From assembly GCA_947470805.1 (NCBI GenBank), contig CANIVU010000013.1:1-64000 (forward strand): a DNA stretch of 64,000 bases, given 5' to 3'. How positions within the stretch are numbered: position 1 is the stretch's first letter; each line of letters starts with the position of its first letter. The notes beneath the pieces are model-generated. The model had not been told where the DNA came from. It did not search any database and saw only the letters and a program-made list of their open reading frames with translations. The position numbers and the translations under genes are program-made. Shown here piece after piece: positions 55,946-60,283 of the stretch. The DNA comes from Acidobacteriota bacterium. Lineage in GTDB: Bacteria > Acidobacteriota > Terriglobia > Bryobacterales > Bryobacteraceae.

Positions 55946-58318
55946 TTGAACCCCGCCCAACGCAATGCCCATTTTGACGAACTCAACCGCCTGGACGCGG
56001 AAATTCGCCGGGCGACCGATGTCTACACGCTGAAGCCGATTCACGAGCGTTTGGAGGAATTGTCCCGTCTCTATGCCGCCGATGCGGCCATGATGAACGC
56101 CATCTCCTCCCTCCGGTCCACAATGGTCGCCCACGGCCAACGGCTGATGTCCAATTCAGGCCAGCAAACACCGCCCACCCAGCCGCCTACGTCCAATCTC
56201 CCCCCCGGATCCTTGCCCACGCAGGCAATGCCCGCCACAGGCCCCGCCCCGCGCCCGCCCTCCGGCGTCCACCCGCCACCGCCCCAACAGCCACAACAGC
56301 AACAGCCCCAGCCGCCGAAAGCGCCCGCCGCGGCTTTCAATTGGAAGCGCGCCGCCGCCGTTGGCGGTGTGATCGGCCTGCTTATTGCCGCTGGCGGCAT
56401 CTACACCATTCAGAACGCGCGCAAGGCCAAAGACACCACAACAACCAGTGGCAATCTCAAGGTTGCCGTAAAGACGAATCCGCCCGGCGCGTCCATCCGC
56501 ATCAACGGCGAAGTAAAGTGCACCTCCGATTGCAACATCGACCTTCCCGCCGGCCCCTACGAAGTCCAAGCCGTTCTGCCTGGCTATGAAACCGCCACTT
56601 CCAAACTGGAATTAAGCGCCACCACCCCGGGCAACGTCGACCTCACCCTCCAGCCGCTGCCGCTCTCGGTCCGGCTCTATACCGATTTCACCGCCGGCAA
56701 GGTCACCTTCGACGGCGCCCCGTACGGAGACCTCCAGGACGGCCAGCTCATTCTCGATCGCATCGCCGCCGGCAAGCACACCATCAAGGTCACCTCGCAG
56801 GCCAACGAAGCTCAGTTTGAGTTCGACGCCCAACCCGGTCGCCAGCCCGTGATTTCCGGTCCCGTAACCGCCAAGAACACTTTGACGATCCTCGTAGCCA
56901 ACGCCGGCCAGCAGACGAAGATCCACTCCTCCGTGCCGACCCTCAAAGTCGCCATCGACGGCAACCCCGCCGGCGATGCCACCCCCGCCGGCCTCGAAGT
57001 CAATAATCTCCAACCCGGCGACCGTGAATTCTCCGTCGACGACGGCGGCACCAAACGCAATCTCGTCGTCTCCGTCTCCGCCCAGCCCACTCTAACCGCC
57101 TACCTGAAGCTAGACATCAACGCCGGTTCCCTGCTAATTGCAACACCCGGCGAAGACGATGTGGCCGCATTCCTCAACGACCGGCCGGCCCGCGTCAAGT
57201 CCAAGGGCGGCCAGATGCGCCTCCCCGGCATCCCTGTCGGCACCTACACCGTCCGCGTTGTGAAGGACGGCTACACGCCGGACCCGCCGCAGAAAATCGT
57301 GATCGCTAAGGGCCAGGAAGCCCGCATGGAGTTCAAGATGAAGATGATTCCGCGCCTGGCCACGCTCCGCCTTCGCGGCGCCGCCGCCGGCACACAGGTC
57401 CTCCTCGACGGAAATGCCATCGGTTCCGTCCCCGCTTCCGGATCGTTTGAATTCGCCCAGGTCGCCCCCGGCGAACACGTCGTCGAACTCCGCCGCGACC
57501 GCATGGCGCCTAAGCGCAACCCGCGCCAGTTCCGCGCCGGGGAAGCCATTGAGCTCTCCGGTAGTGACGTCAACCTCTCCGCCGCCGGCGGCACCATCCG
57601 TCTCAACGTCACCCCGGCCTCGGCCCAGTTGACCATTAAAGGGCCCAACGACGCTGCCCCGCGCCCCGTCTCCGGCACCACTCTCCAACTTGGCGAAGGC
57701 TCCTACGTCATCTCCGCCAAGGCGCCCAACTACGCCGACCGAACCCAGACCATCGTCGTCGCCAACGGCGACAACAAGACCATCGACATCCCCCTCACCG
57801 AGCAAAAGCAGTCCGCTCAGAAACAGGCTCCCCAACGCCGTACCGGCAACATGACCGATTGGGACGACCCCGGCACCTGGATCCCCGAAGGCGGCTGGTA
57901 TAAGCGCAAGGGTGGCGGCGTCGTCACCTACGGCATCACCCCCGCCCAGGGCACGTTTAGCTTCAATATCTCTCGCATTGAAGGCCGCCGGCTCCAATGG
58001 GCCGTCGACATCCAGGACGCCCGCAACTACGTCCAGTTCCAGTTGGAGCGCAAGAACTTCATCCGCCGCGAAATCGTCAACGGCAAGGACCGCAACGAAC
58101 TCAAGGTGGAGCACAAGCTCCCCGACACCAAGAACTACAGCGTGCAGGTGGAGATCTCGCCCAACACCGTCAAGACGTTCATCCTCGACGGCACCGAATG
58201 GCGCACAATCGACTCCTGGTCCACCAACAGCCGCACCCTCACGCAGGGCAAGTTCGGCCTGGTCATCCCCGGCAACGACGTCTTCGGCCTGACGAACTTC
58301 CGCTTTATTCCGAAGTAG
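55946..58318 (+). CDS. Single-pass PEGA-domain surface protein with C-terminal LamG-like domain
   Basis: About 790 residues. I favour the TTG at 55946 (GGGAGA seven bases upstream) over the GTG at 55925. An N-terminal helical segment is followed by a Pro/Gln-rich linker (PPPPQQPQQQQPQPPKAP) and a TM helix (VGGVIGLLIAAGGIYTIQ, about 140). Several PEGA repeats come next (VKTNPPGASIRINGE, GPYEVQAVLPGYETA, GTYTVRVVKDGYTPD, GEHVVELRRD, SYVISAKAPNYADRTQ). The last ~150 residues form a jelly-roll-like domain (YVQFQLERKNFIRREIVNG). PEGA proteins act at the envelope. The gene overlaps the convergent Wzz-like fusion by 14 bp. Confidence 0.82.
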   Translation: MNPAQRNAHFDELNRLDAEIRRATDVYTLKPIHERLEELSRLYAADAAMMNAISSLRSTMVAHGQRLMSNSGQQTPPTQPPTSNLPPGSLPTQAMPATGPAPRPPSGVHPPPPQQPQQQQPQPPKAPAAAFNWKRAAAVGGVIGLLIAAGGIYTIQNARKAKDTTTTSGNLKVAVKTNPPGASIRINGEVKCTSDCNIDLPAGPYEVQAVLPGYETATSKLELSATTPGNVDLTLQPLPLSVRLYTDFTAGKVTFDGAPYGDLQDGQLILDRIAAGKHTIKVTSQANEAQFEFDAQPGRQPVISGPVTAKNTLTILVANAGQQTKIHSSVPTLKVAIDGNPAGDATPAGLEVNNLQPGDREFSVDDGGTKRNLVVSVSAQPTLTAYLKLDINAGSLLIATPGEDDVAAFLNDRPARVKSKGGQMRLPGIPVGTYTVRVVKDGYTPDPPQKIVIAKGQEARMEFKMKMIPRLATLRLRGAAAGTQVLLDGNAIGSVPASGSFEFAQVAPGEHVVELRRDRMAPKRNPRQFRAGEAIELSGSDVNLSAAGGTIRLNVTPASAQLTIKGPNDAAPRPVSGTTLQLGEGSYVISAKAPNYADRTQTIVVANGDNKTIDIPLTEQKQSAQKQAPQRRTGNMTDWDDPGTWIPEGGWYKRKGGGVVTYGITPAQGTFSFNISRIEGRRLQWAVDIQDARNYVQFQLERKNFIRREIVNGKDRNELKVEHKLPDTKNYSVQVEISPNTVKTFILDGTEWRTIDSWSTNSRTLTQGKFGLVIPGNDVFGLTNFRFIPK

Positions 58319-59294
58319 CCCGCTGCCCCTCGGTCAGCGCAGGTGCCGTGGCCATTCCCAGGATCCACGCCAACACCAGCGCATTGGCCGGGATGTAGAG
58401 ATTAAAATCCACCATCGAGTGCATGCCCATGGCGGCAACCGCGCCGCACGCTCCTGCCACCAACCGGCTACGGTCCAGGCCACGTCCCATCCAATACAGG
58501 CAACGCCCCATCACGCCCAGCGCCAGCGCGAAGCCAATCAGGCCCAACTCCGCCAGATACTGCAGATAGTCGTTGTGGGCGTAGTCCACCGTGGGAGCGG
58601 CATTCTCAAACTTCTTGGTCACCCGGCTCAGCAGCATATCGCTCTGGATAATCCGCAGCTGGGTCTGGATGTCCACCTGCATCCCAAATCCCTCGGAATC
58701 GGTCGCGACCGGATTCACGTTGGACATGTTCATGAAGTTCCGGTTCATCTCCTGAACTTCCAGCGTCGTACTGGCCGAATAGATCGGTGTCATCGGCAGC
58801 GTGTACATGATGGCCAGAATGCAGCCAACCGCGCCCGCAAGCAGAATGGTCCCCTTGCGCTGCCGGACCAGCCGCCAGTACTCAATCAATCCCGGGCCGA
58901 TTCCCTCGTCTTCATCGGCAGTCCCGGGAGGCACCGGATACCCCGGCACATACCCCGGCGGCAACGTCAAAGCCTTGTAGTGAACGCCAGGCTGCAACTC
59001 CAGCGGAGCGCCCCAGGCACCCGGATGCGGAAGCTGCGGCGGCACCGCGCCCCCATTGCCACGCCCGCGCCCGGAACTGGCGCCACTGTTGCTGTTACGC
59101 GTCGCCGACCATCCGCCCCCACCATTCGCGCCCGCCGCCGCTTCGCCATTTGCCGGTGTTTCCGGCGGCGTTTTGTCAAACAACACACCCTTCACCGCCG
59201 CGCGACCCCGGCGCCAGGCGTCCTTCGGGTCCTCCGGCGTGCTGCCCGCGTTCCCGGTCTCCGGGTTGACTTGTCCGTTCAGGTTCTCGTCCAT
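58305..59294 (-). pseudogene. In-frame chimera: Wzz-like N-terminus joined to O-antigen ligase C-terminus
   Basis: 329 residues. Residues 1-130 are a low-complexity Pro/Gly tail facing the cytoplasm. A Wzz/chain-length-determinant start follows (EYWRLVRQRKGTILLAGAVG, TM at about 150-170, YSASTTLEVQEMN, IQTQLRIIQSDMLLSRVTKK). Near residue 232 it turns into the end of a WaaL/O-antigen polymerase: VDYAHNDYLQYLAELGLIGF, then TM segments to VLAWILGMATAP. A Wzz protein should continue for hundreds of residues with a second TM, and a ligase should have about ten earlier TMs. Neither is functional in this form unless the fusion has a new role; a deletion is inferred. Confidence 0.75.
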
Positions 59295-59318: not shown

Positions 59319-60283
59319 CTAGCGGCGGAACACCGCCAGTCCGGTACCGATCGTCACCGCTGCTTCCAGCGATTTCAGAGCCAGCTTCTTCCCTGTACTC
59401 GACGGGATGAACAGAATATCGTCCGGCTCCATCGAGACATCCGCCTTCTTGCCCTTGAGAATCTCACTCAAGGCGACCAAAATCTCCTGCCGTTCGCCCC
59501 CGTTCGCCGTCCGTCGCAGGATCTTCGCGCCATTCCCGGCCGCTTCCTTATCCAGACCTTCCGCCATCGAAAGCGCCTGCAAGGCCGTCACCCGCTCCCG
59601 GTCGCCCAGGATAAACCCGCCGGACTTCTTCACGTTGCCGACGACATACACCAGCTCCGCCTTCGGCACCGAGATCACATCGAACGGCTGGATCTGGATG
59701 TTCTCCTCCGGGCTCTGCGCGTTCATGATCCGCTTCACGCTGATCTCGGCCACAATGTACGCCCCGTCGGATCGGTCTTCGCGCTCGCCAACGGGATCGC
59801 TCCGTACTCAATCTTCCGGGTGATCTTGATCTGATGGCCGGCGTCGGGCTTCAGCCCGCCCACCACCGAGATCACTTCCAACAAGGTCTTCCGGCCCTGC
59901 AACTGGTGCACGCCCGGCGTGGTCACCTGGCCAATCACCGAGATCGGCTGGCTCTTGTACTCGACAACCGCCACCGTCACGCTCGGCGTCTTCAGGTACT
60001 CTTTCAGCCGCTCTGCCACCGCGGCTTCCAGTTGTTCCACCGTCTGCCCGGCGGCCTTCATCCGGCCGATCATCGGCAGATTCACCATCCCGCGCAGGTC
60101 GATCCGGTAGGCGAACTCCTTCGTGTTAGCCCCGCCGCCACCGTTGAACTCTTCCAGGTCCAACACGCGCACCGTCACCTGGTCGTCCGGCCCCAGGATG
60201 TAGGTCTTGCGCTCTACCTGTTCGCCGGGTTGGCTAAAGGCAGACACCGCCAGCAGCAAGAACAGCCCGATTACCGCGCCCAT
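59319..60283 (-). pseudogene. Wza-like polysaccharide export protein with a one-base frameshift
   Basis: Two overlapping frames make one protein. The first (60283 to about 59765) has signal peptide MGAVIGLFLLLAVSAFSQPG, YILGPDDQVTVRVLD and VTVAVVEYKSQPISVIGQV (poly-export and SLBB parts). It drifts into RTLWPRSA and stops. The second frame (from about 59765 to 59319) continues AYIVAEISVKRIMNAQ, IQPFDVISVPKAELVYVVGNV. The span is 965 bp, one short of 322 codons; restoring one G to the GGGG at 59762-59765 (CCCC on plus) gives TGAYIVAEISV in one frame. It should form the outer-membrane polysaccharide channel. Confidence 0.75.

Follow-up and report, generated by a model that had tools for sequence, protein, structure and literature searches.

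A Wzz–ligase chimera as the very probable remnant of a collapsed exopolysaccharide cluster in an acidobacterial genome

Introduction

In Wzz proteins the periplasmic domain lies between two TM helices, and those of the PCP-2a type additionally carry a kinase (PMC10030265). Here we describe a chimeric open reading frame (ORF) in the first 64,000 nucleotides (the window) of contig CANIVU010000013.1 (C13) of an Acidobacteriota assembly (G000), in which part of such a protein is joined to part of an O-antigen ligase. With PCP-2a chain-length kinases of the Wzc/EpsF-G type, represented by proteins of 858 aa in the related genome G149 and 959 aa on contig C66 of the same assembly, the chimera has in common the Wzz N-terminal domain and the TM1 region; it lacks the GNVR region, TM2 and the tyrosine kinase. 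Since both TM2 and the kinase are absent, the chimera is not a PCP-2a member. With Wzy_C/PEP_O_lig_1-like ligases (402 aa each in G149 and in a further relative, G205) it shares ~100 residues at the C-terminus, which are 75% and 88% identical, respectively, and include the AHNDYLQ motif, and it is without their first ~300 residues. Among the entries listed in literature searches of open-licence PMC papers, no title or abstract start reports a Wzz–ligase fusion of this kind.

The closest published parallel found is in Salmonella O-antigen clusters, where wzy was deleted stepwise and in a lineage-specific manner with IS elements, after an alternative gene had been gained elsewhere (PMC3715488). 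The present locus is like these wzy remnants in its serial deletions that differ by lineage and in the involvement of IS elements. It differs in that a single polymerase gene was concerned there, whereas here the interior of an acidobacterial cluster is missing and the join is accidentally in frame. The process in the window is of the same kind on a larger scale, an ordinary kind of gene loss.

The chimeric open reading frame

The chimera encodes 329 aa, starts with ATG and contains no internal stops (Table 1). A stretch resembling a ribosome site (AAGGA, judged by eye) is positioned 8 bases 5' of the ATG, and the ends of the chimera and of the PEGA gene overlap by 14 bases. Pfam places Wzz (PF02706) at residues 136–228 (E 5.5e-11), followed by Wzy_C (PF04932) over residues 228–258, which correspond to profile positions 118–148 of 149 (E 4.3e-6), although the latter match scores 27.0 bits, under the curated cut-off of 31.7. 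The ligase assignment stands apart from this weak match because residues 228–329 are 75% identical to the end of the full 402-aa Wzy_C protein in G149 and 88–89% identical to the ligases of G205 and G203. Pfam and homology to relatives thus agree with the original prediction of a Wzz-like first ~230 residues and an O-antigen-ligase last ~100. Residues ~1–135, ahead of the Wzz domain, are poorly conserved among the Wzz proteins of relatives.

Table 1. Features at the window site (C13) and their intact counterparts in G149 (contig C15)
Feature	Location	Strand	Basis
PEGA-domain protein gene, repeated PEGA domains, flank anchor	C13 55925-58318	plus	Pfam; syntenic in G149
Chimeric ORF, Wzz/PCP-2a N-terminus + Wzy_C ligase C-terminus	C13 58305-59294	minus	ORF list, Pfam, homology
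Putative deletion join, position uncertain by a few codons	C13 58593-58616	minus	alignment to Wzz and ligase relatives
SLBB/Poly_export (Wza-like) gene, frame broken	C13 59319-60283	minus	ORFs 59735-60283 and 59319-59753
Small ORF preceding export gene	C13 60271-60747	minus	ORF list
UpxY-family (RfaH/LoaP-like) NusG paralogue, intact, head of former cluster	C13 60546-61061	minus	Pfam
TPR-like protein gene, other-side flank anchor	C13 61253-62425	plus	Pfam matches below cut-off; syntenic in G149
Export gene	C15 130736-131695		between flank anchors
Wzz-kinase, 858 aa	C15 131722-134298		Pfam Wzz + GNVR + AAA_31
Ligase, 402 aa	C15 146288-147496		Pfam Wzy_C

A search of the chimera against its own genome matched residues 53–231 to the wzz-kinase gene on C66 (50% identity) and residues 228–327 to the C66 ligase (68%). 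As these are two separate genes, the halves are of different origin, with the switch at about residues 228–231. A simple hydropathy scan found one hydrophobic segment in the Wzz part (150–168) and the rest in the ligase part. Relative to the Wzz proteins of relatives, TM2, the periplasmic domain, the GNVR region and the tyrosine kinase are absent; the ligase part amounts to ~100 of 402 residues, so that the portion with most of the hydrophobic segments is missing.

Wzz-like sequence reaches approximately KKF (codons from 58616 down), and ligase homology is clear at TVDYAH (codon at 58592) and likely begins already at FENAAP. The join thus lies at about 58593–58616, in agreement with the originally predicted 58585–58612. 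The FENAAP of the chimera resembles the FKNVAP of the ligase, with 12 of 18 bases common with G205 (counted by eye) and two ligase codons missing, and identity at the join is limited to a few bases. A deletion may have occurred between short similar stretches at this point, in parental sequences that are now gone, and it happened by chance, at one in three, to leave an open frame.

An intact counterpart in a related genome

The same-genus genome G149, an Acidobacteria MAG from groundwater, carries a whole cluster at the corresponding site of its contig C15 (JACPNQ010000014.1). Both flanks are collinear with C13 over ten genes with 59–89% amino acid identity (C13 49296–66235 versus C15 124776–156463; genes past C13 position 64000, where the window stops, were read from the same contig). 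Six genes at C13 49296–58318 match C15 147483–156463 and four at C13 61253–66235 match C15 124776–130127, with order and relative orientation kept on both sides. In addition to the export gene, Wzz-kinase and ligase, the G149 cluster holds a NusG-type gene, glycosyltransferases, a WecA/MraY-type transferase, a PEP-CTERM protein and three ORFs with no Pfam match. The window site retains only the NusG-type gene and the small ORF, followed by the export gene, which is broken, and the chimera.

Mapped onto G149, the joining points fall near kinase residue 219 and ligase residue 298, ~14.8 kb apart. The size of the putative deletion (~15 kb) is taken from this one counterpart, and such clusters vary in extent, as the 37 kb spacing of kinase and ligase on C66 shows. 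The arrangement in G149 is what the original prediction entailed, namely a deletion of the end of wzz, any intervening genes and most of the ligase.

The export gene immediately upstream of the chimera is a second inactivated cluster gene. It lies in two frames, matching residues 6–173 and 160–319 of the G149 protein. In G203 the gene is also in two pieces, with a different break (7–248 and 251–319). It is unbroken at nine places in the genus, with 61–100% identity to the G149 protein (G149, C66, G004, G078, G185, G202, G169, G177 and G161). The different break points in the window and G203 argue for loss of function and against sequencing error. The small ORF preceding the export gene is 92% identical to that of G203 over 95 compared residues.

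The same site across the genus

The flanking PEGA gene was matched in all 19 genus genomes searched (own included), in 18 of them with long coverage; it is in two pieces in G192 and G206, and G200 gave a 53-residue match only. The site itself was read in nine of the 19 (G000, G149, G205, G204, G197, G113, G201, G203 and G192), of which seven are informative, the contigs of G113 and G201 stopping within ~100 bases of the PEGA gene. The comparison with close relatives that the original prediction had proposed found the locus intact in G149 and cut differently in others.

In G205 the 402-aa ligase is complete and is preceded by a portion of the next cluster gene, where the contig ends; a search of this assembly (83% complete) yielded no close homologue of wzz or of the export gene. 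G203, whose contig is identical to L046 (CAMATG010000372.1, Candidatus Sulfopaludibacter sp. SbA3 MAG), retains the broken export gene, the start of wzz, a transposase fragment and the last ~180 ligase residues. The transposase is a truncated member of the IS256 family (L046 2973–3617, profile positions 1–171 of 338). In G204 the PEGA gene and a TPR-gene stub enclose a short ligase stub (L048 2598–2642), with 15 residues at 87% identity in one comparison and 35 at 57% in another. In G197 and G192, the 7.5 and 18.6 kb, respectively, past the PEGA gene contain none of the cluster genes that were searched for and no gene of the left flank. One site in one genus thus presents the whole cluster, a kept ligase end, two different collapses, a bare stub and no trace, a small natural series of polysaccharide-cluster loss.

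In a PEGA-gene tree of eight sequences, the window and G205 form a group (ultrafast bootstrap 93), with G203 just outside (86). If the cluster was inherited vertically, this one-gene tree would make the losses in the window and in G203 separate events.

Search for other fused homologues

Full-length homologues of the same architecture in many genomes, which the original prediction had named as evidence against it, did not appear among the matches listed. Among all 30 matches in the 19 genus genomes (own included), the fused architecture was found in the window only, and none other was present among the matches listed for 200 family genomes including its own, with at most 11 candidates scored in most genomes. 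At least eight of the matches listed in the family search span the join by at least 9 residues. G190:C20 (query 184–318) is a plain ligase that aligns with the G149 ligase over 16–392, and G118:C206 (query 113–250) is a plain Wzz-kinase that aligns with the G149 kinase over 98–825. Others (G097:C10, G196:C757, G015:C296, G190:C63, G199:C336 and G126:C54) are in frames of 762–1138 aa, the length of a Wzz-kinase. The join-spanning match in the genus search, G197:C124 (133–255), is a long Wzz-kinase match.

Other clusters in the genome

The G000 assembly is a draft of 220 contigs with 100% completeness and 3.1% contamination. A second exopolysaccharide cluster, on C66, is intact; its kinase and ligase are encoded on the same strand, ~37 kb from each other. 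In a whole-genome search, the full G149 kinase matched C66 (78%), a distant C52 paralogue (40%), the chimera and four kinase-only sequences at 24–36%, and the full G149 ligase matched C66 and the chimera only. Neither a detached wzz C-terminal half nor a ligase N-terminal half was found elsewhere in the assembly. C52 carries another export gene and kinase, a third and more distant pair.

The C66 export gene and kinase are ~80% identical to the G149 genes at the site of the window. The C66 cluster has its own UpxY-type antiterminator; one end of the contig carries an IS3-type fragment, and an IS21 IstA/IstB pair lies close to the opposite end. The acidobacterium Solibacter usitatus has been described as having numerous paralogues and mobile elements (PMC3174227).

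Substitution rates

For the ligase tail, dN/dS is 0.08 against G203 and 0.13 against G205, compared to 0.05 for the PEGA gene. Between the window and G203 it is 0.17–0.18 for the export-gene pieces and 0.17 for the NusG-type gene. The first 50 Wzz residues (ω of 0.76 against G203) were left out, as they include stretches that are out of frame in G203. Relative-rate tests of the ligase tail counted 3 window-only changes versus 1 for G205 (p=0.63) and 4 versus 1 for G203 (p=0.38). The Wzz part showed a tendency only (17 versus 10, p=0.25; 17 versus 9, p=0.17). For the first part of the export gene, the counts for window and G149 were 26 versus 14 with C66 as the outgroup (p=0.08) and 8 versus 13 with G169 (p=0.38), and those for window and G203 were 3 versus 11 (p=0.06).

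Over the Wzz core (133 residues), the window is 53–56% identical to G149 or C66, which are 72% identical to each other; decay is here inseparable from older divergence because synonymous sites are near saturation and the comparison is without a Wzz from a closer relative. The rates show no significant decay, and the call of a remnant therefore rests on anatomy, which is its chief weak point. Rates this mild would suit a recent deletion, and the tail may retain some constraint.

Discussion

The chimera is very probably what remains of a collapsed exopolysaccharide cluster that encoded a PCP-2a chain-length kinase. Through a deletion of ~15 kb, the chain-length protein would have lost its periplasmic, TM2 and kinase portions and the ligase its first ~300 residues, and the intervening genes would have disappeared. 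The fusion product is probably non-functional, and we conclude that the loss of the cluster was recent. Judged by its gene content, the remaining cluster can no longer make or export polymer, because it has lost the assembly genes and the reading frame of its export gene is disrupted. The second cluster may have made this loss tolerable. Among the three options offered by the original prediction, a dead remnant is best supported, by the broken export gene, the different collapses in relatives, the lack of another fused homologue among the matches listed and the intact C66 cluster. The kept start, ribosome-site-like stretch and open frame speak against it, as does the lack of significant acceleration in the ligase tail.

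In a variant of this reading, one IS256-linked deletion would have been ancestral to the window and G203 and been trimmed differently afterwards. The cluster interior is missing in both, and an IS256-family fragment lies between the G203 stubs. Such a common collapse is improbable, as it is G205, with its full ligase, and not G203 that groups with the window in the one-gene tree (ultrafast bootstrap 93), and the two remnants retain different parts. An assembly misjoin, in which the middle of an intact cluster would have been left out during assembly, would fit the draft state and contamination of the genome. It is nevertheless unlikely: apart from the diverged intact C66 pair, no leftover wzz or ligase halves were found in the assembly, a k-mer misjoin would be expected to show more than the few identical bases at the join, the damage extends to the upstream export gene, and G203 has its own collapse at the same site.

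That the ORF encodes a functional new short protein, such as a truncated co-polymerase that disturbs or adjusts the Wzz oligomer encoded by the second cluster, seems very improbable. The open frame, start codon and ribosome-site-like stretch are kept, as are the TM1 region and C-terminal hydrophobic segments, and the ligase tail is not measurably accelerated. However, the fusion occurs in one of 19 genus genomes and, among the matches listed, in one of 200 family genomes; the product would be without TM2, the GNVR region, the kinase and most of the ligase, and the adjoining export gene is broken. Positive evidence for the short copolymerase proposed originally was not found. In its most specific form, the in-frame fusion would be expressed as a membrane protein, enter the C66 Wzz ring via its TM1 region and alter chain length, a gene born by deletion; this we regard as extremely improbable. 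Automatic annotation could label the ORF as a Wzz or as a fusion protein, and most likely neither name applies.

A scan found three terminator-like sites (2.4 expected, sd 1.7) and two promoter-like sites (0.7 expected, sd 0.9). Ahead of the lost cluster, the UpxY-type antiterminator and the small ORF are still open, with dN/dS values between the window and G203 of 0.17 and 0.08, respectively.
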